A stretch of 64,000 bases of DNA. Source: Antedon mediterranea. Lineage: Eukaryota > Echinodermata > Crinoidea > Comatulida > Antedonidae. A program made the translations under genes and the position numbers. The notes beneath the pieces were generated by a model that saw only the letters and a program-made list of their open reading frames with translations, did not search any database and was not told the origin of the DNA. The stretch lies in contig NC_092673.1 in NCBI RefSeq assembly GCF_964355755.1, forward strand, positions 29,517,001 to 29,581,000, in the 5' to 3' direction. Below are positions 1 through 42,700 of this stretch, in pieces (positions within the stretch are counted from its first letter, which is position 1; every line of letters starts with the position of its first letter).

Positions 1-3000
1 CTTAGAATCTAACATCTACTAATACAATTGCAGTTTAAAATAAAACATGTTCAGATTAGACATATTTACATACTTCTCACTGTAATAGGAACTAATGTCG
101 TTGCAACCGATATAACTGAAATACCATCGACTGATCAAACTACCTTAAGTAAGTAAACAGGTAGAACTTAGAATCTAACATCTACTAATACAACTGCAGT
201 TAAAAATAAAACTTGTTCAGATTAGACATATTTAAAATAATTTATTTCTCACCGTAATAGGAACTAATGTTGTTGCAACCGATATAACTGAAATCCCATC
301 GACTGATCAAACTACCTTTAGTAAGTAAACAGGAAGAACTTAGAATCTAACATCTACTAATACAACTGCAGTTAAAAATAAAACTTGTTCAGATTAGACA
401 TATTTCAAATAATTTATTTCTCACCGTAATAGGAACTAATGTTGTTGCAACCGATATAACTGAAATCCCATCGACTGATCAAACTACCTTTAGTAAGTAA
501 ACAGGTAGAACTTAGAATCTAACATCTACTAATACAACTGCAGTTAAAAATAAAACTTGTTCAGATTAGACATATTTCAAATAATTTATTTCTCACCGTA
601 ATAGGAACTAATGTCGTTGCAACCGATATAACTGAAATACCATCGACTGATCAAACTACCTTTAGTAAGTAAACAGGTAGAACTTAGAATCTAACATCTA
701 CTAATACAACTGCAGTTAAAAATAAAACTTGTTCAGATTAGACATATTTCAAATAATTTATTTCTCACCGTAATAGGAACTAATGTCGTTGCAACCGGTA
801 TAACTGAAATAGCGACTGATCAAACTACCTTAAGTAAGTAAACAGGTAGAACTTAGAATCTAACATCTACTAATACAACTGCAGTTAAAAATAAAACTTG
901 TTCAGATTAGACATATTTAAAATAATTTATTTCTCACTGTAATAGGAACTAATGTCATTGCAACCGATATAACTGAAATCCCATCGACTGATCAAACTAC
1001 CTTAAGTAAGTAAACAGGTAGAACTTAGAATCTAACATCTACTAATACAACTGCAGTTAAAAATAAAACTTGTTCAGATTAGACATATTTAAATTAATTT
1101 ATTTCTCACCGTAATAGGAACTAATGTTGTTGCAACCGATATAACTGAAATCCCATTGACTGATCAAACTACTTTTAGTAAGTAAACAGGTAGAACTTAG
1201 AATCTAACATCTACTAATACAACTGCAGTTAAAAATAAAACTTGTTCAGATTAGACATATTTCAAATAATTTATTTCTCACCATAATAGGAACTAATGTC
1301 ATTGCAACCGATATAACTGAAATAGCGACTGATCAAACTACCTTTAGTAAGTAAACAGGTAGAACTTAGAATCTAACATCTACTAATACAATTGCAGTTT
1401 AAAATAAAACATGTTCAGATTAGACATATTTACATACTTCTCACTGTAATACGAACTAATGTCATTGCAACCGATATAACTGAAATACCATCGACTGATC
1501 AAACTACCTTTAGTAAGTAAACAGGTAGAACTTAGAATCTAACATCTACTAATACAACTGCAGTTAAAAATAAAACTTGTTCAGATTAGACATATTTAAA
1601 ATAATTTATTTCTCACCGTAATAGGAACTAATGTCGTTGCAACCGATATAACTGAAATACCATCGACTGATCAAACTACCTTTAGTAAGTAAACAGGTAG
1701 AACTTAGAATCTAACATCTACTAATACAACTGCAGTTAAAAATAAAACTTGTTCAGATTAGACATATTTAAAATAATTTATTTCTCACTGTAATAGGAAC
1801 TAATGTCATTGCAACCGATATAACTGAAATACCACCGACTGATCAAACTACCTTTAGTAAGTAAACAGGTAGAACTTAGAATCTAACATCTACTAATACA
1901 ACTGCAGTTAAAAATAAAAATTGTTCAGATTAGACATATTTCAAATAATTTATTTCTCACCGTAATAGGAACTAATGTTGTTGCAACCGATATAACTGAA
2001 ATCCCATCGACTGATCAAACTACTTTTAGTAAGTAAACAGGTAGAACTTAGAATCTAACATCTACTAATACAACTGCAGTTAAAAATAAAACTTGTTCAG
2101 ATTAGACATATTTCAAATAATTTATTTCTCACCATAATAGGAACTAATGTCATTGCAACCGATATAACTGAAATAGCGACTGATCAAACTACCTTTAGTA
2201 AGTAAACAGGTAGAACTTAGAATCTAACATCTACTAATACAATTGCAGTTTAAAATAAAACATGTTCAGATTAGACATATTTACATACTTCTCACTGTAA
2301 TACGAACTAATGTCATTGCAACCGATATAACTGAAATACCATCGACTGATCAAACTACCTTTAGTAAGTAAACAGGTAGAACTTAGAATCTAACATCTAC
2401 TAATACAACTGCAGTTAAAAATAAAACTTGTTCAGATTAGACATATTTCAAATAATTTATTTCTCACCGTAATAGGAACTAATGTCGTTGCAACCGATAT
2501 AACTGAAATACCATCGACTGATCAAACTACCTTTAGTAAGTAAACAGGTAGAACTTAGAATCTAACATCTACTAATACAACTGCAGTTAAAAATAAAACT
2601 TGTTCAGATTAGACATATTTAAAATAATTTATTTCTCACTGTAATAGGAACTAATGTCATTGCAACCGATATAACTGAAATACCATCGACTGATCAAACT
2701 ACCTTTAGTAAGTAAACAGATAGAACTTAGAATCTAACATCTACTAATACAACTGCAGTTAAAAATAAAACTTGTTCGGATAGACATGTTTCAAATAATT
2801 TATTTCTCACCATAATAGGAACTAATGTTGTTGCAACCGATATAACTGAAATAGCGACTGATCAAACTACTTTAAGTAAGTAAACAGGTAGAACTTAGAA
2901 TCTAACATCTACTAATACAACTGCAGTTAAATATAAAACTTGTTCGGATTAGACATATTTCAAATAATTTATTTCTCACCATAATAGGAACTAATGTCAT

Positions 3001-3800
3001 TGCAACCGATATAACTGAAATAGCGACTGATCAAACTACCTTTAGTAAGTAAACAGGTAGAACTTAGAATCTAACATCTACTAATACAACTGCAGTTAAA
3101 AATAAAACTTGTTCAGATTAGACATGTTTCAAATAATTTATTTCTCACCATAATAGGAACTAATGTCGTTGCAACCGATATAACTGAAATAGCGACTGAT
3201 CAAACTACCTTTAGTAAGTAAACAGGTAGAACTTAGAATCTAACATCTACTAATACAATTGCAGTTAAAAATAAAACTTGTTCAGATTAGACATATTTCA
3301 AATAATTTATTTCTCACCGTAATAAGAACTAATGTCGTTGCAACCGATATAACTGAAATAGCGACTGATCAAACTACCTTTAGTAAGTAAACAGGTAGAA
3401 CTTAGAATCTAACATATACTAATACAACTGCAGTTAAAAATAAAACATGTTCAGATTAGACATATTTACAATAATTTATTTCTCATCATAATAGGAACTA
3501 ATGTCGTTGCAACCGATATAACTGAAATAGCGACTGATCAAACTACCTTTAGTAAGTAAACAGGTAGAACTTAGAATCTAACATCTACTAATACAACTGC
3601 AGTTAAAAATAAAACTTGTTCAGATTAGACATGTTTCAAATAATTTATTTCTCACCATAATAGGAACTAATGTCGTTGCAACCGATATAACTGAAATAGC
3701 GACTGATCAAACTACCTTTAGTAAGTAATACAGCTTCAGTTAAAAATAAAATATAAAACTTGTTCAGTTAGATCAAACCACTTGCTGTAAGTAAATGGCT
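1..3800 (+). repeat. Tandem array, 166-172 bp unit, about 22 copies
   Basis: Nearly identical units run from the left edge, marked by the recurring start of cttagaatct at 1, 167, 339, 511, 683 and 852 and onward. The last full unit ends near 3720 and a truncated, diverged copy continues to about 3800. Unit length varies (172, 169, 166) through a 3 nt deletion in the open segment and a 6 nt difference in the flank. Units starting at exon segments 1118, 1290, 1453, 1625 and 1797 recur exactly 851 bp later with the same private variants, so a five-unit block was duplicated recently. The array is cut by the window edge, so total size is unknown. Confidence 0.97.
89..3720 (+). CDS. Candidate array of 22 Thr-rich mucin mini-exons (phase 1-1), upstream part of the mucin gene
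   Basis: Each tandem unit contains a segment preceded by a pyrimidine-leaning stretch ending in taatag and followed by gtaagt. Segments are 89-148, 261-320, 433-492, 605-664, 777-833, 946-1005, 1118-1177, 1290-1346, 1453-1512, 1625-1684, 1797-1856, 1969-2028, 2141-2197, 2304-2363, 2476-2535, 2648-2707, 2819-2875, 2988-3044, 3157-3213, 3326-3382, 3495-3551 and 3664-3720. All are 60 or 57 nt; read with 2 nt completing the previous codon and 1 nt left over, none has a stop. The 20-residue repeat reads TNVVATDITEIPSTDQTT plus F or L and R, rich in Thr. The only indel removes one codon. The donor gtaagt is kept in all 22; the acceptor AG is lost in three (1453, 2304, 3326). Phase 1 matches the next firm exon at 5145. 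Transcription is not shown, so exon status is inference. Confidence 0.6.
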
Positions 3801-5144: not shown

Positions 5145-5661
5145 CTCCTGAAACGATAATCTACAAAGTGATCATTGCAATTAATGGTATTGATGGTATT
5201 GCAGACGATGCAATATTTGATAACAGTCTTGATGATGAAACCTCAGATAGATACTCCTTATTTGCTGGATACACATGCTCAGCTGTAAGCAATAAATATA
5301 AACTTTTAACATTTTTATTCTAATCACTTTTTGTCATTATATAATTTTTTTTTTCTTTTTTTGCTTTCTCTTAACTTTCAAAATGGTAGACTAATGAATG
5401 GATTCAGTCATTATTGTAATAATCTTTGTCTTTTTTAGATTGAAAATTCCCTCGACAATACTTTTGATGACTATGTAAATTGTAATGCAACAGGATTTTC
5501 CAACGGAAGCATTATAGCAAGTGCTGATGTATGGTTTTTGGCAAACACTAATATATCTGCTGCTATGGTACAAAATCAGTTGAGGGTAGATGCAGAGGAT
5601 GACCTCACTACACTTGAGGGTGTTGTTATAAATGTTATAATATCAAGCATAATAGTAACAG
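5145..5661 (+). CDS. SEA domain 1 (two exons)
   Basis: Exons 5145-5284 (phase 1 to 0) and 5439-5661 (phase 0 to 1). The encoded text has [17 protein letters not shown] at the start and a central [12 protein letters not shown]; the G-S-I-I-A stretch fits the GSxxx-type autocleavage loop of SEA domains between Gly and Ser, though cleavage is inference. The intron falls at the same place as in the later copy at 31237-31965, and the two copies share long stretches such as DDAxFDNSL and DETS. SEA domains in membrane mucins let the extracellular part be cleaved yet stay associated. Confidence 0.88.
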
Positions 5662-8600
5662 GTGAGAATATTTGCCAAATGAAGGGCCATCTGACCACTT
5701 GACAGAACTCACTTACCTATAACCCAAACATACTCCTAAACATAGCAGCTCTAGGGCTTTTATAAATCATGGAATATAGAGTAATTGCAAAATACATAAA
5801 TGATTTATTACACCTATCTATGTAATACAAGAAATGGAAGTCAACTTTTGGAAACTATGGGCTACTTATCAGTGTATCAGTAATCGGTTAGGTACATACT
5901 GTAAGATATCAAGTCCTCCTTCAAAATATGTCTCAAAGAAATTGAGGTCATTAAGGTCCGCCTCTATCTAAAATGCAAATCTTACACAATAATTCACTAA
6001 CTAAATTTTTTTTCTTCTTTTTCTTTCCGGAAACAGACCCAGGTATGAATTTTTAATTATTATTTAAAGTTAATAATATGGTGCATTTTGGACAATCGTA
6101 TCTTTATTTATATTACCACAGGTGTACAAATTTAATGAAATATTTTATTTTATTTTTCACAGCTGACCTAGCCATAACAACTGAAGTCACAACAAGTAAG
6201 TCTAATATTTCAAAGTAGTGAAACTATTTAATTATTTTACATATATGATTGTTGACTCTAGATGTAACCAGTACAGGTGTACAAATTTAATGAAACATTT
6301 TATTTTAATTTTCACAGCTGACCTAGCCACAACAACTGAAGTCACAACGAGTAAGTTTAATATTTCAAAGTAGTGAAATTATTTAATTATTTTACATATA
6401 TGATCGTTGACTCTAGATGTAACCAGTACAGGTGTACCAATTTAATCATTAATCTTATTTTATTTTACACAGCTACCCCAACTCCAACACCCGAAGTCCT
6501 ACGTAAGTCTAATACATTAGTAGTGATACTAACAATTTAACATTATTTTGTTAAATAGGATTTTTTTTACCAACTGGATCAAGTAAAACAATTATTTATC
6601 TGATAAAATCGGAATTTTTTAAATAAAAAAAGTAAACTTCTTGTTTTTTTTTATATAAATAGAATCATTGTTTGATGCTTCTTTTTTTTCTTTTAAAGTC
6701 TGCTTTGCTTTTGAGTTTCAATGTCAGTCGGGTGGTGTTCAAACATGTTTCCCAGATTTCTGGATTTGTGACTACATTTCTGACTGTGATGACAATGCAG
6801 ATGAGATTAATTGTAAGTTGTTGGAAGTTTTTCGGTAGAATGTGTAAACCTTAATTTTAACGCTAAATTTGGACAGAGCAGTATGGTATAAAATGCTGTA
6901 TATACTACGAACAATACTGAATGACAATAAACAGATAAATAGAGTTTTCTTGCATAAAACAAAATTAATTGGAAAAGTTTTTGATCAAATAACGATATTA
7001 TGTGTTGATCAAGGTTCTATACTGAGGAGAACAATTCTTTGTTTTAAATTCGCCCATTTTGTAAAAATACATTGAGAACCATATTTTCACGAATTTAAAA
7101 TGAAAACTTTAACTGAAGGGTATAAAAAATGGAAAAATATGTTTTGCCAAATAGTAAAAAAAATTCTCTTTTGTTTAATCATACAAGATCAATTCTATCT
7201 ATTATTATAATGTTGTTTATGTAAAATAATTAATAAACTGTTTTGTACTAATTTTGTACAATAAATGTTGTTTACCATTTTAATAGGTTTTACAATTAAT
7301 TTTGATTTGTTTATGATGAGAGCATGTCATATCTTTGATAGGTCCTCCGTGTGGAGAAAATAGTTACCAGTGTCCGTTCGACTCTTGTATCCCAGACAGC
7401 TGGCTTTGTGATGATATTGCAGATTGTTTCGATTTCTCCGATGAATCATTCGAGCTTTGCGCAGGTAACATTTTCTTTTTGTTAAGTTAGACTAGGCTTA
7501 TTGAAACTGATCATCAAGAAAATGTTTAGTTTCTATCCTATTTATATTTCTTATACCCAAAAATGTAATTCTGTCTTTTTTGCTACCATAAACTACAGAA
7601 TAGGAATTTTTTTTGTAGAAAACTTTTTTTTAATAAACATGATAACATTAGAAAAATGTTACGCAAGTTAAGTATACATTATATGCGTAATTGTTTACAC
7701 AAAGCAGTATATATTACACCCTCATTATAATATAATACGAATGTGTAACGCACCAATTCCAGCAGTAAGTGAGGAGCGGTGTATGAGAGAGCTCAATCTG
7801 AAAGAAAAAGATGAGTTTTCAAGGCAGATTTAAAGGTGATAGTTATAGCAAAAATCAACAATTATCTCAGAAGAGATATTAAACTAAAAATATTTTGATG
7901 CATTTTGAAATAGAATAGAAATCTGTTTGATCTTCTGTGCCATTCAGTACACATGATAACGCATTGTTGAAAGAATAAGTATTAATATATATGCATCACT
8001 TTTGGTTTACTCAAAGTTTATATACTTTGATACAATTCTATACAATTCTACTTTCCTTTAAATTCAATTTAAAAACACACCTTTTTTTAGAATTTGTATT
8101 GACCTAATTACTTTATTCTCAATTTGGAATTGGCGCTATATAAATTTCTGTTATGAATATTATTATATACCTACAGCAATGCATGTCCTAGTTGATTAAC
8201 ATGTAAACATTATTTTACAGGCCAATGTATTTCACCATTCCCTCCGGACAATGGCATTATTTTGGGAATAGCATACGAGTTCTACTTGAATGGCGATACT
8301 ATAGGATATGACTGTTTTAGTGGGTACTCATTGATAGGACCATCCAATAGTACTTGCTTAAATGGAAATTTCACGGAAGTTCCAACTTGTCGAGGTGAGT
8401 AAATTCTTGTGATCCGGTTCAATGGCTGGGAAAAAAATCATGGAAAATGGGATTAGTATCAAAATAAAACCATTCACACTATGTCATTCCAGACTAAGTG
8501 TATGTGTGTAATCAATGAAATGTAACACAGCTTTACTCTCATTGCCTCGTTCTTTAGATGGAACATAAAGCTGTTGGTCCTGTATATATACTTTGACTCA

Positions 8601-11600
8601 TTACACTATTGAATGAATGAGTAGGTAATCATCTACCAATCATATAATAGTCTTACACACTGGACCCTTTGAGAGAACAGTCTGTACTAAAGAGGAATAA
8701 ATAGTAATAATAAATAAACTTGTTTTACAGAGGATTGCTCGCTTCCACCAGCTCCAGATCAAGGAACTGTATCAGGTTCTATAGTTCATGGCCAGAACAT
8801 AACCTTTGAATGTGAAGAGGGGTATGTTACTACAATGGGTCCAAGCACAATCACGTCTCAGTGTATGGATGGCGGTTATGATGTTACAACAGTAGTCTGT
8901 AAAGGTAGCTAAGTTACAATAAATTAAACAATTTTCCAAATAAAGTTTCGTTTTTAGTGTTTGTGTGTGAAGATCTTTGGTGTGCGGTCACCTCTTCCTA
9001 TGTTGTGTAATTTATTGAGTATGGTCTAATGATTAACATTTTAAAAAGCGAAAACATCACATAAAAATGGTAACAATTAAAAAAGAAAATAAACATAATT
9101 TGTTTGTTTCAGATTTCAATGAATGCACATCTGGGGAAAACAATTGTCACAACATGGCGATTTGTACCAACATATTGGGTAGTTTCTCATGTGAATGTAT
9201 GGGAGGCTATACTGGTGATGGAACCAGCGACTGCACAGGTAGGTACTACTGTACACTATACCTTTAAGCTCTGTCTACACTATCAAACTTTATGTGACAA
9301 AAAAATGTGATGTGCCCATATATGGACACGATGTCGTATCAAAAACATATTTACTTTGGTAATGTAGACAGACCTTTACACAACCTACGATTTTTCAGAT
9401 TTATCTTAATATATAAAGGTTAAGTTTTATAATAATTTGTAGGTGCCTTTAACATTTTGGAATTGGCACTAACTTTTGGAACTAGTCACAATTAAAATAG
9501 ATTAAGAAATCTCTAAATCTTGTAGTACATGAAAAACATTTTGTGTAGATGATAATGCTGTTTAACAATGACATCAATGACAAATGACAGATATGTATAT
9601 AAAAGTTTTGACATTTTTTTTATGTAAAATGTTACTGTATAGATATTGATGAATGTAAGAACAACGACACCTGTCCACTTCTTACTAGTACATGTACCAA
9701 CACAAATGGAAGCTTTTATTGTGTTTGCAATGAAGGGTATGAGGAGTCTTATGGCCAGTGTGTCGGTATGTGAAACATCTAATATTTCTGAATTGTTTTT
9801 GTGTGTCTAGGTATGTCAAAGGTCATTCAATTTGTTAAATTATGTTCAAAATTATACACACAATTGTATTTTATTGACGATGAAGGAAATTCAGTTAATA
9901 TCCCTTTTAATGCCCACCATATCCTCAATGAAGTGCCTACCATTATCATTATATTCCCAACGGCAATATTCTTTTCGAAGGTAGGTAGAAATTGTCTAAA
10001 GGTTTGCATGGCGAAATCAAATGTTGATATAAAGTTTATGGTACACTACATATATTAGTTCGGAAAAGAACTGTTGAGTTTCTCTACGTTTTGATCAATA
10101 TGTTTTGATCGTCCTCAGTAGTGTTGTATCGCAAATTTTAAATCAATATAGAATTTATGTCTTCCTCTATCTTAAGTGTTGAGTGTACATGTTGTCTAAC
10201 TGAAAACACTTTTCAACGTCTGTGTAGCCATCCAATCACTCATAAGCAGACGCATTTTGATGCAGATGCATTCACACACATCATTCCAATTACATTAATA
10301 TAACATCTTAAGAAAACATTCCTAGAAAATTGTAAACCTTCTGTGAATTAACAATTTTGTTTTGTGTTTCAGAAATTGTATTGTGTGATTATGGAGTGGA
10401 AGCTGGTGATTTATTGCTGAGTATGCACGGAGGTGATTCTGGAAATTCTGTAGAAGACCTTATTTCTGAACGATTCTTTCCTCCTATTGGTTTTCCATTT
10501 GGAAGTCAATACTTTGGTGTCATTTATGTAAGACTTTTGTTTAGTTGAATAAAACATCTCAGTTTTATGATTATGATTCATGCAAAGCACTGATTCTGAA
10601 CGGTTCTTTGGATTGTATGCATCTAATTCATATTTATTCTATTTTAGTTTACTGAAAATGGTTTGATACTATTTGCACAAAAAGGTCAAACTCTATATTC
10701 AAATCCTCATCCACCCCAGAATGGACTAAGTGCGATGACTGATAGTCCTCTTGTTGCACCATTCTGGGCAGATGCTGACAATACACTTAATAGTGGAGAA
10801 GTGTACTACCAGGTAAGTTAATTTACCTACCGAGCTAGCTCTACCTAACTAGCACTGACTAGCTACCTAGGTAGCTACCTAACTAGCTACCTAGCTAATG
10901 CTACTTTAGTTAACTAGCTACCTAACTAGCTACCTACCTACTGTAGCTAGCTACCTAACTAGCTACCTACCTACTTAAATCAATCAAATACGTTTCAACC
11001 CCTTTTTATCCTCACCTGATCTAGAATTTATCAACAAAAGCTCCGATGGAAAAACACAACACCCAACAAAATTATAACCGCCAACAAAATGCAAACTAAT
11101 AGTTTTCACAAAATGTTACATGTGGAACCTCTGTTTGCAGTCCTCTCAATCAACAAGCTTTGATTAGAAAACAAAACGCATAAACAAAATTAACTTTGTG
11201 AATTAAAAGAGAATAATACTGAACTTGGAATTAAATAGTGAAAAAATCTCACCACACTCGGCTGGAAAGTAGATTTAACTTACTCATATTTAAAGTGTGT
11301 TAGTCCTTTGATTGTGTCACATACATTATTTCATTGCTTTTACATTTACTTTAAGGTATATGACATGAACAACAATCCTGGTCTTCTCAACAAAGTATCA
11401 GCAATAGTGCAAACATCAAATGTTTCAGATGATTGCAGTTTTGTGAAAGAAAGTTTTAGTGGCACCTGGATGTTAATTGTGACCTGGACGGGAATACCGC
11501 AGCAACCAGCTGAAAGTAATCCAGATACGGTATGTCAATTATTACATTAGAATTTAAATTATTTGTTTAATGATAATAATTCTCTATATTATACATAGCT

Positions 11601-29600: not shown

Positions 29601-32600
29601 TGGAACAACAGAAGAACAAACGTCTGTCGATTCAACTACTGCTGATGGTACAACATCTGAGAGTACCACACCTCCAAGCACAACATCACCAAGCACCACA
29701 CCTACCGCAGGTACAGTTTAAAAAAATTGTTGTTCATTGTTTTTTGTTTAAAAAAAATGAAAGAAAAATAGTGTATTTCACTTCTTAAGTCATGCATACT
29801 TTTCACTTTACAGCTCAGAGTACCACAGCCCAGGGTACCACAGCCCAAAGTACCACAGCCCAAAGTACCACATCCCAACGTACCACATCCCAGGGTATCG
29901 CATCCCAAGGTACCACAGCCCAAGGTACCACACATCAGGGTACCACACCTCAGGGTACCACACCTCAGGGTACCACAGCCCAAAGTACCACAGCCCAAAG
30001 TACCACAGCCCAAAGTACCACAGCCCAAAGTACCACAGCTCAGGATACCACAGCTCAGGATACCACAGCTCAGGGTACCACAGCCCAAAGTACCACATCT
30101 CAAGGTAGATTTTTTTTTAATGTATAAATGCACTATCTATATACATGCACTATTTCTATGGCAGGTAGGTTTAATATATTAACTTAATTCATTGATCATC
30201 CATTAGGATGAACAAATTTCACCCTTAACACCTTAATTCATACATAATTATAATGGATATCACATCGCTATAATTATATAAATACACTTTTACTATGACA
30301 GGAAGATTTAAGAGATTAACTTAATCCATTGATCATCAATTTGTATTAACAAATTTCACTCTTAACACCTTAATTCATACATAATTATAATAGATATCCC
30401 ATCACATATTAATCCATATTTAATCTGGAGACTATATTATTCACTCATTTTAACTATAAATGCATATATTGCTATGGCAGGTAAGTTATAAAAATGTTTT
30501 ACTGTCTCTTTGTTCATTTTTGTTTGTTTGTCTACCATTTCATCTTTTTACTGCAATGAATTCCTGCAGTTGTTTGCGAGCATTGCTCATTGACATTAAT
30601 TTCTTTTAAAAAACTAACATTCAATAATATGCAAATTTATCTATTGCAGCATTTTCACTGGGTGTTTTTTCTCTTTCTGTTTTGATTGATAAAGCTTGGT
30701 TCCCACAATGTGATGTAACGCCAGTGATGGACCATACGAATTGTCGCCTGTGATTGGTCAAATTTCTTGCTGTGCGGATACGTTCTTGCATTGCATCCAA
30801 GTGGGAACCAAGTTTAATTAAGCATCATTATAACTAAAAAATTTCAATTCATATTATCATATTTATATATCTGCATATTTACCAGAATATTGTTTACTTC
30901 CCACAATGCAGTGTGTCAGCACATAATAATTCTTTATCACAATATTTATTTCATAACTCATCTAACTAACACTATTTGGTTTACTAGATACCAGGTTGCA
31001 AAAGAAACTACGAATACCCATCACTAATATTAATGTTGTATTCGTTAATTATGGACTATTAACTTGATTTAAAGGATCAAGTTATGTATATGATTGAAGG
31101 CTATCCTCTCTTAATGGCATAATGTTTAAATATCTGACTCATAGAGTATCCACAATTTTGGTGTGTTATACGTACATAGCTCCTTTGAGGGTCCTATTTT
31201 CCAGTAGTATATTAATTGCTTTTTCTGTACTATTAGCTCCTGGAGTAATCTACGAAGTGACCATTACAATTGTTGGTATTGATGGTAATGCAGATGACGC
31301 AGCATTTGATAACAGCCTTGCAGATGAAACCTCAGAAAGATACATTCAAATTGCTGGATATGCATGCTCAGCTGTAAGTGAAAAGAATTTCTTCTTCTCC
31401 TACCTTTTTCACTCTTTCTTCTATTTGTGTGTGTGTGTGGGGGTGGTTGGAGTGGTGTGGCGGAGAGGGATTGTGCGCTGATGGAGTATCAAAAAGACCA
31501 CATTTTAATGGGATAATGACCGGAATTTGTACTAAGAAGGTTTTAATCAAGGAAGAGTAAAATTCACTTTTCCTATTACAATTAAAAACTGCCCTGTACA
31601 CTGAATTCAATCGGGCTAAGATTGATTATTTTTTACTTTCTCTAAGAATTTTGAATTGATTAAAATATAAATAATAGTTTACTTAGACTGTCTCAACACA
31701 TAACCTGTGAAACAATCTTTTTCTTTTTATTTAAAGATTGAATATGCCCTGAACACTGCATTTAATGACTATGTCAACTGTGAAGTGACAAGTTTGACAG
31801 ATGGAAGCATTATAGCAGAAGCCAATGTAGGCTTTGTGACGAGCACTGATGTATCGCCCACCATGGTAGAAGAACAGTTGAAGACTGCTGCCGAGGAAGG
31901 CCTGCCTACATCTGATGATGGTGTTCTTTTAAATGTTGAAATATCAAGCATAACAGTTGATTTAGGTGAGTACATTTACACAATGCACTGTACATACAGA
32001 AAAATTATCTTTAAAGCTCTGTCTACACTATCAAATTTTATATGACAACAAAATGTGATGTGCCCATATATGGACATGATGATGTCATGTTACTACCATA
32101 TGTGGGCATACGACTACCATGTTTGGGAACATCACACTTTTTTGTCAATCTAGAGCTTAAGATTACTGAGATTAATTTTAGAAAGTTGAGAAATCTGACA
32201 TTTATGTTGAGAAAGAGATATATATACTATATGGGATCCTACATTCCTTTTTTAACCTTTCAAAGGTGGGTTCAACTAGGCTATAAATCTCTTTTAATGA
32301 CATTAACATAACATAACATATTGAGACCATTTCCCAAATACAGCAGATTTTTTAAAAAATTAATAACATAATGTTGTGCTTTGTTTTATGGTTCTATTAA
32401 TTAGTGTAAATAATTTTTATTTCAATGATATTCAATCTAAAATAATATTATATTTTAAATAAAATATCAATAAATAATTTAATTTTTTCCTTTTCTTTTT
32501 CCAGTACCAACAACAACAGAAGGTATGACAATTTAATTATCATTATCATGCATTTATAGATCTCTTTTATTGATGTTAACATAACAAATATTGGGACCAT

Positions 32601-35424
32601 AACAATAATTTCCCAAATACAGCAGAATGTTTTTGAGACTGATAACATATTTGTGTGCTTTTTTTTATATTTCAATCACAATTCATAATGTTTTTTTGCT
32701 TCTATTATTTACTGAGAATAATTTTATTATATAATATATAATATTATATAATATATAATATTATATATATATATTATATATATATATTATATATTCAATG
32801 TAAAATATAATTATTTTGTAAGAATAATTTTATTTTTCCTTTCTTTTTTCAGTACCAACAACAAAAGGTATGACCTTTAAATTATCATTATTAGTAGTGC
32901 ATTTTCAGAACCTTATATTCACCACATATTTAGCATACTAAATGTATATACATATTATGAAGTACTGTCCACCCAGGCAGCACTTGCCAGCTCTTATACT
33001 ATGATGTTATCCAAATTCCTTCACTTGCACTGATGAAGGGCTATGTGTTGCCCGAAAGCTCTGCTAACTTTTCTGGCTGTTTTACTTATCGTTTTGATTT
33101 AGCTTTTCGCTTTTTTTTTGTATATCCATTGAGATCCAGCCACTGATACCCACAGCATTGTCATTTTTTCAGTAATTTGCCTTTGGATTCATATTATGAA
33201 GTACTAATATATTTTTTAAAATATTTAATAATTAATTCCTTCTTTTTTTCAGCACCAGGAATAGGTATGAACTTTGAATTAGTTAATTTATTTAATATAT
33301 ACGATTATTTAAAACATAAAAAAACACTACAATAACATTTGAAAAGAATAATCAGCTGAGATTCAGCATAGCCAATGAAAGTCCTAATGTGAAACTTATT
33401 TCCAATTGAATCCTATTAACAACAAAAAAGCAAGCAAAAACAACAATGGAAACACATACATAGATAATATGGGACATATTTAATCATTTTTAAGAAATTC
33501 TATTTCTAATTTATTATTAACTATTTTTTATCTTATCAGATACTGTTGTAATTATTATAATTGTGGCATCAGCAATTGGGGTGTTCCTCTTTGTGTTAGT
33601 GTTAATGTTATGCATTATGGGTGCTGCACTTCGTAGAAGAAGACATCTTCATGCAAGACCATTCTCCAAATATCCCACACCACCTGGAATATATGCCAGT
33701 AGGGTTGTACACAATCCTTTGGGCGTGAAATACGATGATGTAGATAGCTTCTATGAAACGGAGAGCGTAACAAGCAGTGAGGAGAGTCGAATGCGACATA
33801 TGGCTAATGTTATACGGAATGCTCCAAGGATTGAGGTTAGTACAGACCCCACAATTCTCCTGATAGTTGCAAGAGTTCTTGGATACTGAAGCCTGTTTTC
33901 CTGTCGACGTTATTCGATGCTGTCGTCGTTGATCGTTCAACGACGACAGCATCGAATAATGTCGACAGGATCAACGACGATCATTTGAAAACGATCAAGT
34001 TGAAATGATGACAATATGGGGTACCTTTTCCAGTAAATCATTTACATAGAAGATCGCCGATTATTGTTAACGATAGCGTCGATCTAACATCGACAGGAAA
34101 ACAGGCTTAAGAAGAAAATGATCTCATATTTCCTGTTTAAAGCAAATCACTCCCCTCTCACTAATAATGGAACAATCCATTAAGAGAACTTTCTTGAAAT
34201 AGCCATTAATTCTAGTGGGCTGAGGTGTCAATCTTGATCATGATAAAGCTCTGTCTACACTATCAAACTAGTTTGACAAAAAAACTTTGATGTTCCCAAA
34301 TATGGCGGTGATATGACATTATTGTATCCATACGGTATATGGGCACATGACATTTTTTTGCCACATAAAGTTTGATAATGTAGGCAGAAATTGAAGTACA
34401 ATTTCTCCTGATTGTTAGTGATATACTAAAACCTCTTTTTAGCATATACTATTGGGTAACTATTTGGAACATTTTTCCTCTATGTTTGGATGTAATTATT
34501 ATAGTGTTCTCTATCGATTGGCCACGCACTCACTAATATGAGTCCTATCCTGTGATATAAATCCATAATGTTGACTCATTGATTTGGTGTTTATATCAAA
34601 TAATACAAGTGTTATTAACTTTTACTTTTGTTACTTTTCAGAGAATGAGTGGTAGCAGAATGAGCATGTCCGAAGGTTCTCCCAGCTCCTACTACAATGA
34701 CTTTGTACGACCATATATAGCTACTGGAGCCGAAGAAGAAGAACTAGTATGTATTATTGTTTAATCTAAAGCTCTGTCCACACTATCAAACTAGTTTTAC
34801 AAAAAAGTGTGATGTGCCGAAATATGGTAGTGATATGACATCATCATGTCCATATATGGGCACATCACATTGTGTTGTAGCATAAAGTTTGATAGTGTAG
34901 ACAAAGCTGCTTTAAGAATAACAGCAGGGTGGATCTATAGCAATGCTCTAGGTAACAGTTCTCAATTGACCTAGCAACATACAAGCTGTGAGTGACAGAA
35001 CGTAGATCTAGATTTATATAAAAACAATCTGTAACTGTTGCTAGTTCTCAGTTGAAATATCAATAAGAATTTGAAAAAAATATATATGTATACAAATATA
35101 CTTTGCCTTAAAATCTTGGCGTACTATTCACTGAAGCTTATCAAAACTTAAAAATAAATGGTAAATAAAAATACTTCATTTGCTATCCAATCGAATTTGA
35201 ACATTTTCATGAAAGCCCCAGTGGTATAATGGTTAGGACATCTGCATATCATGCAGAAGGTTCCGGGTTCAAATCTCAGTTGAGGCAGTTTTTTCTTATT
35301 CCCACTAATTTCCTCATCTTTATCGTTTTAAATTATATTATGCATACAAATATTTCCACTTTTTTTACAGTCACAGTCTTATTACAATCGTGGATTTACA
35401 CGCAACTATAATGCCAACAATTAA
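5145..35424 (+). CDS. Membrane mucin-like protein with SEA, LDLa, Sushi, EGF, NIDO, AMOP, VWD and TM (5' incomplete)
   Basis: Fifty-three exons could be chained in frame to the stop TAA at 35422-35424; the start codon and signal peptide lie upstream of the window. The NIDO-AMOP-VWD core is the arrangement known from MUC4, SUSD2 and insect Mesh; here it is preceded by LDLa and Sushi modules and followed by a long cbEGF array, SEA domains and a single transmembrane helix. The product should be a large type I membrane glycoprotein at the cell surface, partly shed or held together after SEA autoproteolysis, with adhesive or barrier roles by family analogy. Nearly every intron is phase 1, as expected for shuffled extracellular modules; domain-internal introns are phase 0. 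The reading counts 2616 complete codons before the stop. The upstream mini-exon array probably adds a Thr-rich N-terminal region. A direct orthologue name cannot be assigned; MUC4-like is the nearest description. Confidence 0.9.
6037..6502 (+). CDS. Short Thr-rich exons: one 6 nt candidate micro-exon and three 30-33 nt exons
   Basis: Exons 6163-6195, 6318-6350 and 6473-6502 each begin after cacag, end at gtaagt and are phase 1-1; they read [22 protein letters not shown] and [10 protein letters not shown] in series. They sit in three tandem exon+intron units of about 155 bp sharing the flank ggtgtacaaatttaat. Ahead of them, 6037-6042 (acccag between aaacag and gtatga) is a candidate 6 nt exon by analogy with the 12-18 nt exons at 32505-33264; the frame is kept with or without it. 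The segment forms a Thr-rich linker between SEA and LDLa modules. Confidence 0.7.
6699..7464 (+). CDS. Two LDL-receptor class A domains
   Basis: Exons 6699-6812 and 7342-7464, both phase 1-1. Each has six Cys and the calcium-cage end: [15 protein letters not shown] in the first and [14 protein letters not shown] in the second. LDLa modules are calcium-dependent ligand-binding units of about 40 residues, here one per exon. Confidence 0.93.
8221..8904 (+). CDS. Two Sushi (CCP) domains
   Basis: Exons 8221-8394 and 8731-8904, each 174 nt and phase 1-1. Both show four Cys with the CCP spacing, the Gly-Tyr after the third strand (CFSGYSLIG and [10 protein letters not shown]), and a closing Cys just before the donor. 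One module per exon is the usual CCP gene structure. Sushi domains also accompany NIDO-AMOP-VWD cores in SUSD2 and Mesh. Confidence 0.92.
9113..9765 (+). CDS. Two EGF-like domains before NIDO
   Basis: Exons 9113-9238 and 9643-9765, both phase 1-1. Starts FNEC and IDEC, six Cys, and the aromatic-Cys core ([11 protein letters not shown] and [11 protein letters not shown]) mark calcium-binding-type EGF modules. Confidence 0.92.
9266..9377. mobile_element. MITE family A copy 1
   Basis: Begins aagctctgtctacactatc and has the family core gtgatgtgcccatatatgg; the right arm is diverged, ending near gtagacagacctt. Intronic. Confidence 0.65.
10373..11529 (+). CDS. NIDO (nidogen extracellular) domain, first three exons
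   Basis: Exons 10373-10527 (phase 1 to 0), 10648-10812 (phase 0-0) and 11356-11529 (phase 0-0). Typical NIDO features are visible: [19 protein letters not shown], then [14 protein letters not shown] and a short GEVYYQVY strand. The domain is completed by the first part of the next exon ([20 protein letters not shown]). NIDO occurs in nidogen, MUC4, SUSD2 and related proteins. Confidence 0.93.
10829..10975. repeat. CTAGCTACCTA simple repeat
   Basis: Degenerate tandem of ctagctaccta-type units in the intron after 10812. No coding content. Confidence 0.85.
11984..13604 (+). CDS. End of NIDO and AMOP domain (three exons)
   Basis: Exons 11984-12479 (phase 0 to 1, the longest module exon), 12826-12987 and 13485-13604 (phase 1-1). 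After the NIDO end the text has [16 protein letters not shown], a second CPWTFGQA, then [11 protein letters not shown] and [10 protein letters not shown], the Cys pattern of AMOP. The last exon adds [20 protein letters not shown], a Cys-rich bridge before VWD as in MUC4 and SUSD2. The AMOP role is adhesion-related by family knowledge only. Confidence 0.92.
13636..13760 (-). mobile_element. Probable LINE/SINE 3' end, minus orientation
   Basis: Starts with tcaattcaattcaattta, followed by a ccgggttttacaatacaaac stretch that recurs at 20814-20850. The pentanucleotide run mirrors the ttgaattgaattgaatt tail at 16293-16320, suggesting a shared element family inserted in reverse. Confidence 0.45.
13976..16549 (+). 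CDS. von Willebrand factor type D domain (four exons)
   Basis: Exons 13976-14190 (phase 1 to 0), 14776-14860 (0 to 1), 15097-15294 (1-1) and 16436-16549 (1-1). The start [21 protein letters not shown] is the VWD signature, and the end reads KGLFG then [10 protein letters not shown], the usual closing motif split by an intron. The intron before 14776 carries a decayed duplicate of that exon, and the intron after 15294 carries a LINE fragment. Confidence 0.94.
14574..14613 (+). pseudogene. Decayed duplicate of VWD exon 14776-14860
   Basis: After ctattttag the sequence copies the first 30 or so nt of the real exon with few changes (GTTGAAATCAGATTGACTAG), then diverges into a T run without a donor. 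Flanks also match (cacctatttta and cacctaattta). It is an intronic exon copy that lost function. Confidence 0.75.
15602..16320 (+). mobile_element. 3' fragment of a non-LTR retrotransposon (CR1/L2-like)
   Basis: An open stretch from 15602 to the stop at 16048-16050 codes text typical of the end of LINE reverse transcriptase ORFs: [45 protein letters not shown] and a following [13 protein letters not shown] 3' tail of ttgaa repeats ends near 16320. A stop codon lies just upstream (TAA before GTATAC) and the rest of the ORF is missing, so it is a 5'-truncated dead copy, in sense orientation within the VWD intron. Confidence 0.8.
16600..16690 (-). mobile_element. Possible tRNA-derived SINE remnant
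   Basis: On the minus strand the text tggtctagagatatgaacac then ccaggctagtgatctgaagg then a degenerate TTC-arm-like stretch resembles a tRNA head. Weak and without a clear body. Confidence 0.3.
16946..17206 (+). CDS. Post-VWD Cys-containing segment
   Basis: Single phase 1-1 exon. It holds [15 protein letters not shown] and a later [16 protein letters not shown]. In MUC4/SUSD2-type proteins a similar stretch with a CxxxxxCxFD pattern directly follows VWD, which supports continuity of the module order. No separate function can be assigned. Confidence 0.88.
17434..18225 (+). CDS. Cadherin-like beta-sandwich segment running into an EGF-like start
   Basis: Exons 17434-17616 (phase 1-1) and 18044-18225 (phase 1 to 0). 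The text NFPPNITN, then [15 protein letters not shown], then [12 protein letters not shown] and [10 protein letters not shown] looks like a dystroglycan-type cadherin-like fold (DxNGDxxxF and ASDG features), as found after VWD in other large NIDO proteins. The second exon ends in [11 protein letters not shown], the first half of an EGF-like module. The donor is gttagt. Confidence 0.75.
18278..18403. mobile_element. MITE family A copy 2
   Basis: Ends ttaagctctgtctacac and tgtagacagagctta are inverted; core gtgatatgcccacatatgg. Lies in the intron before 18522. Confidence 0.8.
18522..18702 (+). CDS. EGF-like pair with a Pro/Asn-rich insertion
   Basis: Exon in phase 0 to 1. It completes the EGF begun upstream ([12 protein letters not shown]) and adds a second Cys-rich module ([30 protein letters not shown]) with an atypical spacer of Asn and Pro residues. 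The phase switch shows this junction differs from the one-module-per-exon array that follows. Confidence 0.85.
18822..18957. mobile_element. MITE family A copy 3
   Basis: Inverted arms catgtctacactatcaatct and agtttgatagtgtagacat; the long complementary arms include gtgtgatgtgcc and ggcacatcacac. Confidence 0.8.
19141..27996 (+). CDS. Array of about 18 calcium-binding EGF domains (15 exons)
   Basis: Exons: 19141-19263, 19497-19628, 19911-20279 (three EGFs), 21053-21181, 21478-21591, 21987-22109, 22609-22725, 23116-23250, 23659-23781, 24398-24517, 25418-25543, 25895-26137 (two EGFs), 26661-26798, 27301-27426 and 27874-27996. All are phase 1-1. Most begin D-I-(D/N)-E-C and keep the Asn-hydroxylation-type CxNxxGSYxCxC core and six Cys, so calcium binding and rod-like stacking are likely, as in fibrillin. 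The 22609 module lacks the DI(D/N)EC start and the 25418 module has IIEC instead. Exon 19141-19263 ends at a GC donor. Multi-EGF exons suggest intron loss or origin before the intron gains. Confidence 0.93.
20808..20890 (-). mobile_element. Second copy of the 13636 element, minus orientation
   Basis: Shares attctggattttacaata then caaacaataa with the stretch at 13660-13690; a short remnant. Confidence 0.4.
23427..23531. mobile_element. MITE family A copy 4, partial
   Basis: Contains atatggtagtgatatgacat and gcccatatatggacacat of the family core and the arm acataaagttttatgtagac; the left end is missing or diverged. Confidence 0.6.
23953..24322. mobile_element. Inverted-repeat element (about 370 bp)
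   Basis: The outer arms ggttataccaaagaacttat and the complement of ataaacttctttggttataa match, as do inner arms around ggagcagcaccctctcc and gagggcgctactcc. No ORF. A non-autonomous DNA element in the intron between EGF exons. Confidence 0.6.
24995..25336. repeat. 42 bp minisatellite, about 8 copies
   Basis: Unit includes cacagtctatacactcatga then tgctcacatgatattgtaatgt. One unit has a 3 nt insertion. As 42 is a multiple of three the minus strand stays open with a 14-residue repeat ([14 protein letters not shown]); this looks like a by-product, not a gene. Intronic, 80 bp before an EGF exon. Confidence 0.93.
26818..26945. mobile_element. MITE family A copy 5
   Basis: Full-length: taaagctctgtctacactat at the left and agtttgatagtgtagacaga at the right, with the standard core. 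Confidence 0.85.
28112..28245. mobile_element. MITE family A copy 6
   Basis: Arms atctacactatcaaactagt and actttgatagtgcagacaga; core present as atggcagtgatatgatgtca. Confidence 0.8.
28363..29201 (+). CDS. SEA-like domain 2 (two exons), cleavage motif absent
   Basis: Exons 28363-28469 (phase 1 to 0) and 28991-29201 (phase 0 to 1), the same split as the two clear SEA domains. The text has [11 protein letters not shown] near the start and [12 protein letters not shown] where other SEA domains have the GSIIA loop, so autocleavage is unlikely here. Assignment rests on position, exon phases and length rather than on strong residues. Confidence 0.7.
28780..28975. mobile_element. Palindromic element with long arms
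   Basis: The arm ttttgatcaatatacgttta then tcgtcctcagga is mirrored by tcctgaggacaatcaaagta then tattgatcaaaa, with outer stretches around tttagttctgaaa and ttttagaactaaat. A related single arm lies at 10036-10120. Non-coding, just before the exon at 28991. Confidence 0.65.
29317..29457. mobile_element. MITE family A copy 7
   Basis: Left end cttaagctctgtctacacta, right end agtttaaacagagccttaag, core gcgatgtgcccacatatgg. Confidence 0.8.
29564..30104 (+). CDS. Thr/Ser/Pro-rich mucin segment with 15 bp minisatellite exon
   Basis: Exons 29564-29710 and 29814-30104, both phase 1-1. The first is rich in TTSGTT-type text. The second is about 19 tandem copies of a 15 bp unit coding [10 protein letters not shown] with variants TTPQG, TTSQR and TTHQG; it stays open because 15 is a multiple of three. 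Long open frames on the other strand here are by-products of the repeat. Heavy O-glycosylation is expected. Copy number is likely polymorphic. Confidence 0.88.
30105..31236. other. Intron with duplicated block and cag/gta junctions
   Basis: A block around 30159-30296 (AT-rich, with gatcatcaat and cttaacaccttaattcatac) recurs around 30300-30420. At 30163-30164, 30302-30303 and 30481-30482 a 3' splice-like (c)ag is followed at once by gtaggt, gaagat and gtaagt. No coding exon is supported. A MITE-like element lies at 30691-30818. Confidence 0.6.
30691..30818. mobile_element. MITE-like element, family B copy 2
   Basis: Ends aaagcttggttcccacaatg and gtgggaaccaagttt are inverted; the interior has gcatt/aatgc-type short arms as in the other two copies. 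Confidence 0.65.
31237..31965 (+). CDS. SEA domain 3, paralogue of SEA domain 1
   Basis: Exons 31237-31373 (phase 1 to 0) and 31737-31965 (phase 0 to 1). Text [16 protein letters not shown] and [15 protein letters not shown] parallels the first SEA domain, including the G-SIIA cleavage-type loop. Similar exon text and a similar sequence before the first exon suggest a segmental duplication. This membrane-proximal copy is placed as in classic transmembrane mucins. Confidence 0.88.
32012..32160. mobile_element. MITE family A copy 8
   Basis: Left arm taaagctctgtctacactat; the right arm is diverged (gtcaatctagagctta). Core gtgatgtgcccatatatgg present. Confidence 0.75.
32505..33264 (+). CDS. Three micro-exons of 18, 15 and 12 nt
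   Basis: Micro-exons 32505-32522, 32853-32867 and 33253-33264, each after a strong pyrimidine tract plus cag and followed by gtatga. All are phase 1-1 and together read VPTTTE, VPTTK, APGI plus junction glycines, a short Thr/Pro stalk between SEA 3 and the membrane. Matching acceptor and donor contexts indicate they arose by duplication. The frame is unaffected by skipping any of them. Confidence 0.75.
32720..32796. repeat. AT-only palindromic tract
   Basis: Runs of atataatatt and tatatatata between two micro-exons; can fold on itself. Simple sequence. Confidence 0.85.
32970..33195 (+). mobile_element. Dispersed repeat, 3' part shared with 45840-45925
   Basis: Text cattgagatccagccactga then tacccacagcattgtcattt then cagtaatttgcctttggat recurs near 45857-45920 in a FIGNL1 intron. 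Upstream is ctgatgaagggctatgtgtt and gcccgaaagc, a phrase common at ends of invertebrate retroelements. Family unknown. Confidence 0.55.
33540..35424 (+). CDS. Transmembrane helix and cytoplasmic tail (three exons)
   Basis: Exons 33540-33835 (phase 1 to 0), 34642-34746 (0-0) and 35371-35424 with the stop (the exon may continue to 35425 and splice on in the 3' UTR). The first codes a hydrophobic run [20 protein letters not shown] followed by LRRRRH, the stop-transfer charge cluster, so the C-terminus is cytoplasmic. The tail has [18 protein letters not shown], Ser-rich text and Tyr-containing ends (SYYNDF, SYYNRGF) that could be phosphorylation or sorting sites; that is inference. Confidence 0.9.
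33887..34112. mobile_element. Foldback MITE with nested 32 bp hairpin
   Basis: Outer inverted ends aagcctgttttcctgtcga and tcgacaggaaaacaggctt bound an inner hairpin whose arms 33900-33931 and 33938-33969 pair at 31 of 32 positions around a 6 nt loop. No ORF. It lies about 50 bp past the TM exon donor. Confidence 0.85.
34244..34392. mobile_element. MITE family A copy 9
   Basis: Left end aaagctctgtctacactatc then aaactagtttgac; right arm aaagtttgataatgtaggca. Confidence 0.8.
34768..34910. mobile_element. MITE family A copy 10
   Basis: Left end aaagctctgtccacactatc, right end aaagtttgatagtgtagaca then aagct; core gtgatgtgccgaaatatgg. Confidence 0.85.
35215..35287 (+). tRNA. tRNA-like gene or pseudogene, anticodon loop atATCat
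   Basis: A 73 nt stretch beginning gccccagtggtataatggtt has tRNA proportions: a 7 bp acceptor stem with one C-A mismatch and a G-T, a D-arm box tggtataatggttagg, a 5 bp anticodon stem tctgc/gcaga with loop atatcat, and a TTC arm ccgggttcaaatctcag with one mismatch and a G-T. A T6 Pol III-type terminator follows. Anticodon AUC would read GAU (Asp), an unusual choice since Asp tRNAs use GUC. The mismatches and anticodon favour a pseudogene or SINE head. It sits in the last coding-region intron of the mucin gene, same strand. Confidence 0.5.
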
Positions 35425-39724: not shown

Positions 39725-42700
39725 GTAAATATTTTTAAATAATAAAGTTTGTATTGTTTGTAGCATTACAGACTATGTTTGTACAAGCTTTTCTCAGTAG
39801 TCTAGGTCCTGTATTTTGACTATATATTACTAGTAAAAAGATAAATATTTTGACACACATGGCATTTCATACATAAATACTTTAGCTCGACAAAAATAGT
39901 AATGCCAACTGGTGGACTAACATAAAAGAAAAGCAATGACTTTAGATTTCCTTTCAATAAAGGGTTTTAAACATTTTATATTCAAATATATAGACATGTA
40001 TGAATGTGACATGAAAAAGTCATCCCATGTAAGCAGAACATTGAATCAAGATGATGTTACTCACCCTAAGCAAGCTAATAACTTTCTGACAGCCAGAGAC
40101 CAATTGGTGAGACATCTCATTCATTCCGAGTGTTGCACAACTGGATTCAAAACGGGTGAAACTTGATCCAGGTTTTCATAAATTAATAAAACACTATGTT
40201 TTAGTTTTGACGATTATACAGGTGGAATGCCATCCTGAGATTAGAGCGCGTCGTCGTCGTCTCAGTTTATTTGTGTTATTTTATACATAATTTATACTTT
40301 TTATTGACCAGAGATTCCAAAATAAATGATTGAAGGAATGATGAAGGATAGAACAATAGCTTGAACATTTCATTTCACAATTTGTAGGCCCACCCACTCT
40401 CCCAAAGCCTTATTTCAAAATCCTGGATCTGGAAATTATCCCTGACCATGCTCATGTTGGCATGCATGAGTACTGCATGCTCATGTTGGCATGCATGAGT
40501 ACTGCATGCTCATGTTGGCATGCATGAGTACTGCATGCTCATGTTGGCATGCATGAGTACTGCATGCTCATGTTGGCATGCATGAGTACTGCATGCTCAT
40601 GTTGGCATGCATGAGTACTGCATGCTCATGTTGGCATGCATGAGTACTGCATGCTCATGTTGGCATGCATGAGTACTGCATGCTCATGTTGGCATGCATG
40701 AGTACTGCATGCTCATGTTGGCATGCATGAGTACTGCATGCTCATGTTGGCATGCATGAGTACTCCATGCTCATGTTGGCATGCATGAGTACTGCATGCT
40801 CATGTTGGCATGCATGAGTACTGCATGCTCATGTTGGCATGCATGATTACTGCATGCTCATGTTGGCATGCATGAGTACTGCATGCTCATGTTGGCATGC
40901 ATGAGTACTGCATGCTCATGTTGGCATGCATGAGTACTGCATGCTCATGTTGGCATGCATGAGTACTGCATGCTTGTATTCATACAATCTTTGAGAAAAG
41001 CTACCAATAATAAATCTGTTGCATTTATTTACTTGCAGACAATTAACAACCAGAAGAAGAATAGAGGAAGAGAAGAAAGCACTAGCGGGTCAACAACTTG
41101 TTACGGGACAAGTCGTAAAGTGCTTGGAACAAGGTACAGTAGAACCTCCATTTTACGTACGGTACGGGACCGAAAGGCGTACGTAAAACAAAGGATTCGT
41201 AAAATCAAGGTTGACCTTAAATTGACCCCAAATACGTAGAGATCGTAGCTGGCCGTGTTTGCCTTCTGTACATTATGCAGGTGGTCACTAGCTAGGCCTT
41301 GCCTAGACTATTCAGGCCAGGCTAGCAGGCCTAGCAAGATGTGAGGCCTAACTAGAAAAGTACAGTATATACAGGCTGTGCGATGTTTAAATAAAGTGTA
41401 AAATATAATTGTTTTCTATAAAAAAAAAAACAGTCGCTGCTTTATGGGGAATGCACGTGCGTAGCTTGTCCCACACACAGCAGAATTCCTCACACAGCCA
41501 TGCTTGTGGCTTTGTGTGCTTTGTTGTTGTTAATTTGCGCCCTCAATGTAAGAAAATGATGACGTCATCGGTTATTTTTAGCGTACGTAAAATCGAGGGA
41601 ACGTAAAATCAGGGTACGTAAAACACAGGTTCTACTGTATTAAGTATTTTATTATACTAACTAGAAGCATGATAATGATGATGCATGATAACAGGATTAT
41701 TACCACTAATATTATTGGTTATCCGCCTCAAGCGGATAAGCCCTTGGAATTGTAGTGTTTCTTTTTTTTTTTTTTATTATTCTTTCTTTCCGCCACTTTT
41801 GTACGCGACGTTTCTCTGCAACGTGTTAACATAACATGTTGTAACTTGGTAAACATTTAGACATTTAACTGAAGTTGTGCAGCCAAGCTTTTGGACGCTG
41901 TCAGAGCCGCGTAGCGTAAGTTACGCGCGAGTTTATGAAAATCTTAAATTGATCATAACTTCGAAAACCGATAAATATTTTTTAACGTAACTTTCAGCCA
42001 CGTTTTCTTCACATCAATGGCTAACTTTTTCAATCTTTAGCACATTTTTGGACACTAGAAAGTTTGCGCGTAAATTGCGTTTGAAATTTTAAAATACTCC
42101 AAATTTGTACACGCTGTTTCTCTGCAATGCGTTAACATAACATGTTGTAACTTGGTCAACATATAGACATTTAACTGAAGATGTGCAGCCAAGCTTTCTG
42201 ACGTTGTCAGATACGCGTAGCGTAAGTCACGCGCGATTTTCTTAAAATCTTAAATTGATCATAATTTCAAAACAGATAAATATTTTTTAACGTAATTTTC
42301 AGCCAGGTTTGGTTCACATCATTTGTTAACTTTTTTATTCCTACCGAATTTTGTAACATTAGAAAGTGCGCGCGTAAACGGCGTTTGAAATTTTAAAATG
42401 CTTCAAATCAATTTCTGATTAATCAATCAATCAATCAATCAATAATTTTTATTTCTCAAATAAAAACACAAAAAAACAGTTAACATTTTCTAAAAATAAT
42501 AGATAATAAATGAGAAAAAGGAATTAAATAGAGCACGTTTCAGGTCATTTTAAGCGTTTAAAAATTTACCACTGGTGCGCACATTTTTACGCGCGCACGG
42601 CGCAGGGAACACGTATGAGTATTTCTTTTACACGATTTGTGTTTTTAAATCTTTGGTTAACAATTTTACGTTATTTTATTCACTATTCAACTTGAAATGC

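Follow-up and report, generated by a model that had tools for sequence, protein, structure and literature searches.

Protein repeats that arise from tandem genomic units, each comprising a short exon and its flanking intron, have been described for the SmPoMuc mucins of Schistosoma mansoni, in which a 27-bp exon lies within a ~1-kb repeat of up to 20 copies in a multigene family of 15-exon genes, as proven by cDNA (PMC2576457). The introns of these repeats are >93–94% identical, and the transcripts carry 1 to 100 repeats (PMC2576457). The same source describes modular spider silk genes as tandem exon-intron repeats under concerted evolution with exons under purifying selection (PMC2576457), and a study of LPA presents kringle IV-2 (KIV-2) as a 5.6-kb coding unit that is found 1–40 times per allele and encodes a kringle domain (PMC11462820). 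The design of an exon+intron array is thus already known. Here, we analyzed a 64,000-nucleotide stretch of the crinoid Antedon mediterranea (contig NC_092673.1, positions 29,517,001 to 29,581,000, forward strand; the window), which opens within a 172-bp tandem array located in a mucin-like gene. The DNA evidence supports the multiplication of a Thr-rich exon together with its intron, but does not prove splicing. We consider it fairly probable that at least several copies of the array are spliced in, as skippable mini-exons that are variably included.

Like the SmPoMuc repeats, the Antedon array would consist of tandem exon+intron units for a mucin repeat; its candidate exon is symmetric with a length that is a multiple of three, and its repeat introns are homogenized. 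The whole units u1 to u25 (units are named u0 to u26) have a mean pairwise identity of 94.2%, with 86.6% as the lowest value. Unlike SmPoMuc, however, a 57- or 60-nt candidate exon lies in a 172-bp unit at one locus, within a giant HYR/SEA-like/NIDO/VWD gene, several of its splice sites are damaged, and it is known from DNA alone. With the silk genes, as described there, it would share the origin of protein repeats from tandem exon-intron units, but it resides in a mucin-like gene, and purifying selection is not seen in the array. As in LPA KIV-2, the coding repeat would vary in steps of entire genomic units, but the unit measures 172 bp here and is a 5.6-kb kringle-coding unit there.

Tandem Repeats Finder (TRF) and unit alignment place the array at positions 1–3733 of the window on the + strand (22.0 copies, 94% matches by TRF). 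It contains 22 segments of 57 or 60 nt between 89 and 3720, each followed by gtaagt. These exon-like segments had been recognized in the original prediction, made from the window sequence, but the array is not complete there: five further unit exons lie to its left, at 9152–9982 of the upstream stretch L001 (G000:C4:29507001-29517000), giving 27 in all. Units u0–u4 thus belong to L001 and u5–u26 to the window, and the first unit exon of the array, u0, starts at L001 9152 (G000:C4:29516152). Spacing of the window units is 163–172 instead of the predicted 166–172 bp. The 210-nt intron that follows u0 and the end of the array (3734–3800) seem, by eye, to hold degenerate partial copies.

According to the unit alignment, the candidate mini-exons of the window, all on the + strand, are located at 89–148 (u5; 60 nt, AG...GTAAGT, open in phase 1), 261–320 (u6), 433–492 (u7), 605–664 (u8), 777–833 (u9; 57 nt), 946–1005 (u10), 1118–1177 (u11), 1290–1346 (u12), 1625–1684 (u14), 1797–1856 (u15), 1969–2028 (u16), 2141–2197 (u17), 2476–2535 (u19), 2648–2707 (u20), 2819–2875 (u21), 2988–3044 (u22), 3157–3213 (u23), 3495–3551 (u25, with the top acceptor score among the 27 in the acceptor model) and 3664–3720 (u26). 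The segments of u13 (1453–1512), which is probably skipped, and u18 (2304–2363) have lost the acceptor AG (taatac), and in u24 (3326–3382) the AG is displaced by one base, which would leave 56 nt and a frameshift if used.

The phase-1 frame is open in 27/27 unit segments, as predicted, while each of the other two frames contains a stop in 27/27. All 27 segments have a length that is a multiple of three and are of phase 1-1 (u24 counted from its old boundary). Each window segment carries the predicted gtaagt donor, and 26 of the 27 units have a GT donor, the remaining one being an upstream unit (L001 exon 9591–9650) with a GC donor. The taatag 3′ end that had been ascribed to every unit keeps its AG in 19/22 window units and in 24/27 units of the whole array. 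Splice sites were scored against a reference set of 43 domain exons of the gene (28 HYR, 15 EGF); as the selection rule for these exons requires phase 1-1, their phase is not independent evidence. The donor model was built from 41 of the 43, two doubtful donors being dropped, and the acceptor model leaves out the first exon base, since the picking of exons forces an A there. GT donors of the units reach 6.8–7.6 bits and fall inside the range of real donors (2.8–12.4).

The most telling copy is u0, which has diverged from the other copies and is nevertheless open, with 8 Thr in 19 residues. This Thr excess has a P of 6e-6 against the Thr frequency of the upstream DNA in all frames, uncorrected for the choice of frame. 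With an acceptor score (2.6 bits) inside the range of the reference exons, u0 is a good candidate for a Thr-rich exon. Compared with the 57-nt type, the first part of the u0 exon shows 4 mismatches and 7 gap columns and the second part 3 mismatches in 40; the intron after u0 has 2 mismatches in 69. The divergence resembles fast exon evolution, but its left-to-right gradient fits a less homogenized edge of the array, and positive selection on u0 is not claimed.

The array lies in sense orientation within a gene whose architecture was derived from translations of 84 kb and Pfam scans. On the + strand, 28 HYR-like exons in the 20 kb upstream are followed by a 27-nt Thr-rich exon (PTTTPQVT by translation; L001 8767–8793, +), the array, and a first SEA-like module with exons at 5145–5284, which starts in phase 1, and 5439–5661, which ends in phase 1 (both +, ends by eye). 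After this module come three Thr-rich mini-exons at 6163, 6318 and 6473. The first two (6163–6195, 6318–6350) and the acceptor of the third (6473–6502) lie in a second tandem duplication of exon plus intron (6118–6474, +; 155 bp × 2.3 by TRF). The gene continues with LDLa at ~6700, sushi at ~8.2 kb, EGF at 9113, NIDO at 10.3–12.3 kb, VWD from 13960 and a long EGF series at 19–28 kb. A Thr-rich exon from about 29564 precedes the exon with a 15-bp repeat, a Thr-rich minisatellite within one ordinary exon (29814–30104, +; 19.2 copies by TRF) ahead of the second SEA-like module, which has two exons (31237–31965, +, ends by eye). Very small Thr-rich exons follow at 32505, 32853 and 33253, and at ~33540–33640 a hydrophobic segment and then basic residues are seen by eye, without a Pfam match; the product is probably a transmembrane protein. 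Phase 1-1 exons occur all along this gene, in line with the original prediction.

Pfam cut-offs were passed by HYR (two exons tested), LDLa, sushi, EGF (one exon tested) and NIDO (PF06119, 39.4 bits, cut-off 25). VWD (PF00094) reached 26.7 bits against a cut-off of 22.9 with two exons joined; as single exons, the first piece scored 18.8, below 22.9, and the second had no match. The SEA cut-off was missed by the second SEA-like copy (24.2 bits vs. 26.4), and the first copy, which is 50–63% identical to the second and owes its SEA label to the copy at 31237, had no match. For AMOP, the sequence downstream of NIDO, in which exon ends are loosely fixed, yielded no Pfam match with an E of 10 or less. 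MUC4-like transmembrane mucins combine NIDO and VWD with long, Thr-rich regions, and sea anemone versions can carry SEA (PMC9080433). The Antedon gene likewise predicts a long protein that combines Thr-rich regions with NIDO and VWD, but differs by HYR arrays, EGF arrays, two SEA-like modules and the lack of a detectable AMOP. From its predicted modules, it appears to be a very large, modular, mucin-like gene that is MUC4-like in architecture, short of a proven MUC4. No paper title was recognized as describing it, which is weak evidence given the partial literature coverage. As a separate observation on this gene, a group of HYR exons at −12390 to −10720 (relative to the window) recurs ~7.3 kb on, at −5044 to −3262, with near-identical protein text, indicating a block duplication. 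A possible 6-nt phase 1-1 micro-exon (ACCCAG, 6037–6042) combines a strong donor (9.5) with a weak acceptor (−2.4).

A search with 721 bases of array DNA against the whole 354-Mb assembly returned 1 first-look candidate and 9 matches, all at this locus; a control search with a dispersed element of the same window returned 2,511 first-look candidates, 40 of which were scored. The unit thus does not recur at many genomic places as a dispersed satellite, the outcome that the original prediction had named as speaking against it. The array is single-locus in the assembly, short of absolute absence elsewhere because the search skips very common words. A weak match in the search with the array peptide pointed to a second site at 7.6 Mb of C4, but this site is a 60-bp tandem repeat whose matching frame is interrupted by stops, and it was judged unrelated. 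This satellite comprises about 102 copies (L003 2183–8293; G000:C4:7600183-7606293). Within the array, units u12–u14 and u17–u19 are 100, 99.4 and 100% identical, which shows a recent duplication of a multi-unit block. As u13 and u18 sit five units (one block of 851 bp) apart in this near-identical stretch, their loss of AG is probably a single change that was copied once.

Several observations weigh against splicing of the copies. In addition to the three damaged acceptors and the GC donor, 25 of the 27 unit acceptors, or 22 of the 24 that retain AG, do not reach the lowest leave-one-out score of the 43 domain-exon acceptors (0.4 bits). Only u0 (2.6) and u25 (2.7) fall inside the reference range, and the median unit acceptor is equalled or outscored by 47% of 1,812 other AGs in the region. 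The unit acceptors nevertheless look weak, not absent, since their pyrimidine content (0.69–0.75; reference median 0.69) and AG-free distance (35 in 22/27 units; reference median 41) are typical, and one reference exon (−13236) likewise ends in taatag. When acceptor, donor and coding scores are combined in a simple chain, 23 unit exons survive every threshold tried between 0 and 10 bits and 11 survive 12 bits, the background at 10 bits being 5 spurious exons across 39 introns (18 kb); u2, u13, u18 and u24 failed to qualify as candidates. As the units are copies of each other, the 23 retained exons are not independent successes, and 22 of the 23 scorable units (10.7–16.1) are outscored by every one of the seven mini-exon controls taken from the gene (15.5–26.4). 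Moreover, the likeness of u0 to the mini-exon at 6163 is unconvincing (P 0.01–0.12), and homology of u0 with the mini-exons that follow the SEA-like module is suggestive only.

Variation among the copies points in the same direction. Among u1–u25, the sole indel in the exon segments is one codon, whereas the intron parts carry one 6-nt and one 1-nt indel, as had been noted in the prediction. With splice bases excluded, 60 exon columns show 10 substitution events, including one linked to the codon indel, and 108 intron columns show 19 (Fisher P 1.0); the four splice bases account for 3 events against an expectation of 0.7 (P 0.035). The base changes had been described as mostly silent or mild; by eye, 4 of 9 exon substitutions are silent and 5 change the amino acid, including D/G, S/P and S/L, and a silent share of at least 4 has a chance P of 0.11–0.27, so that it is not above chance, and exon and intron vary equally. 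Zero stops in nine changes has a chance probability of 0.82–0.85, and open frames therefore prove little. The substitution-pattern test has little power as a test of selection on this array. Variation thus lends no support to purifying selection acting on individual copies, and the pattern at the splice bases argues against it. Redundancy and symmetry should, however, make each such exon dispensable by itself, so that this result would only weaken the case for coding use. On balance, the predicted string of mucin mini-exons is backed by the gene context, the sister duplication at 6118–6474, the single locus and the candidate exon in u0, and is weakened by the broken and weak acceptors and by a variation pattern that shows no purifying selection on coding segment or splice bases.

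The alternative that best survives this evidence is that only u0 or a few copies are working exons, and that the rest are a (nearly) unused intronic expansion of an exon+intron duplication, which drifts neutrally and is removed in one ~6-kb intron. We regard this as possible, although somewhat doubtful. It would account for the weak array acceptors next to the passable one of u0, for the equal divergence of exon and intron with splice bases not spared, and for the toleration of three broken acceptors and a GC donor, one case of which was probably passed on by block duplication. It is less easily reconciled with the open frame and multiple-of-three exon length of every copy, although these have little statistical power, or with the normal donors and pyrimidine tracts, and an array of symmetric redundant exons would also show little selection on single copies.

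Chance resemblance to exons was assessed in control sequences. Among 3,000 windows of 172 bases from introns of this gene, 1.2% hold a Ser/Thr-rich phase-compatible candidate exon of equal or greater site strength, an upper estimate as such windows may include real mini-exons; a phase-compatible candidate of any composition is found in 6.4% of them. Read antisense, the intron windows yield 2.6% with any candidate and 0.03% with a Ser/Thr-rich one, and 3,000 shuffled units yield 1.1% and 0.1%, respectively. A 63-nt candidate with less Ser/Thr is likewise present in the unit read antisense, which shows that site strength by itself is not decisive. Neither strand held such a candidate in five chosen tandem repeats, with one unit examined for each (88, 42, 137 and 208 bp in the gene, 29 bp ~5 kb beyond it); by contrast, a strong Thr-rich candidate exon is present in the 155-bp repeat at 6118. 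That the array is an ordinary non-coding intronic satellite with exon likeness by chance is very improbable: the 6.4% of intron windows and the antisense candidate leave some room for it, but the Thr-richness falls exactly in the frame of the gene and is strongest in the diverged u0, the array follows the orientation of the gene between a Thr-rich exon and the SEA-like module, a sister exon+intron duplication exists in the same gene, and the unit occurs at one locus only.

The array most likely arose when a genuine Thr-rich mini-exon was duplicated along with the short intron next to it. Under the favored reading, in which several copies are spliced in, this phase 1-1 mini-exon and intron would have been duplicated and then multiplied to 27 by duplications of one to several units. 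The u0 exon and several array copies would be spliced into the mRNA, each contributing 19–20 residues (R-TNVVATDITEIPSTDQTTF type) to a stalk that separates the HYR domains from the SEA-like module; use of all 24 AG-bearing copies would yield 469 residues. As each copy is symmetric and a multiple of three, any subset would keep the frame, and copies with broken acceptors would simply be skipped. The weak acceptors would lead to partial inclusion, so that one allele may give several stalk lengths, and a change in copy number would add or remove whole exons. A further-reaching and tentative proposal, which we consider unlikely as it stands, is that the array acts as a splice-tuned length regulator, in which random inclusion of ~24 near-identical, symmetric, weak-acceptor exons would give each allele a ladder of stalk lengths, with exon number changing fast by unit duplication and with loss of splice sites, though not of the frame, being tolerated.

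Beyond the gene, the window contains an AAA ATPase at 46157–48970 (PF00004, 136.9 bits), presumably reminiscent of fidgetin-like proteins, and, in this invertebrate genome, a Lys/Pro/Thr-rich protein with Ki-67 repeats at 54291–60041 (PF08065, 58.5 bits). The short dispersed element that served as search control is located at 34248–34390 and matches on both strands at many places, indicating that it is palindromic. A 29-bp repeat at 40447–40974 (18.2 copies, 99% matches by TRF) is probably very young.

If the copies are not spliced, the locus would be a clear case of an exon+intron duplication becoming an intronic satellite, and a warning on reading exons from repeats. If splicing does occur, up to ~470 residues of a mucin-like protein would come from a repeat that may be masked in annotation pipelines. 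The gene itself offers a contrast at 29814–30104, where a Thr-rich stretch has been lengthened in the usual way, as a 15-bp repeat inside one exon. With spliced copies, the length of this mucin would change by whole exons and by splicing, beyond slippage inside one exon.

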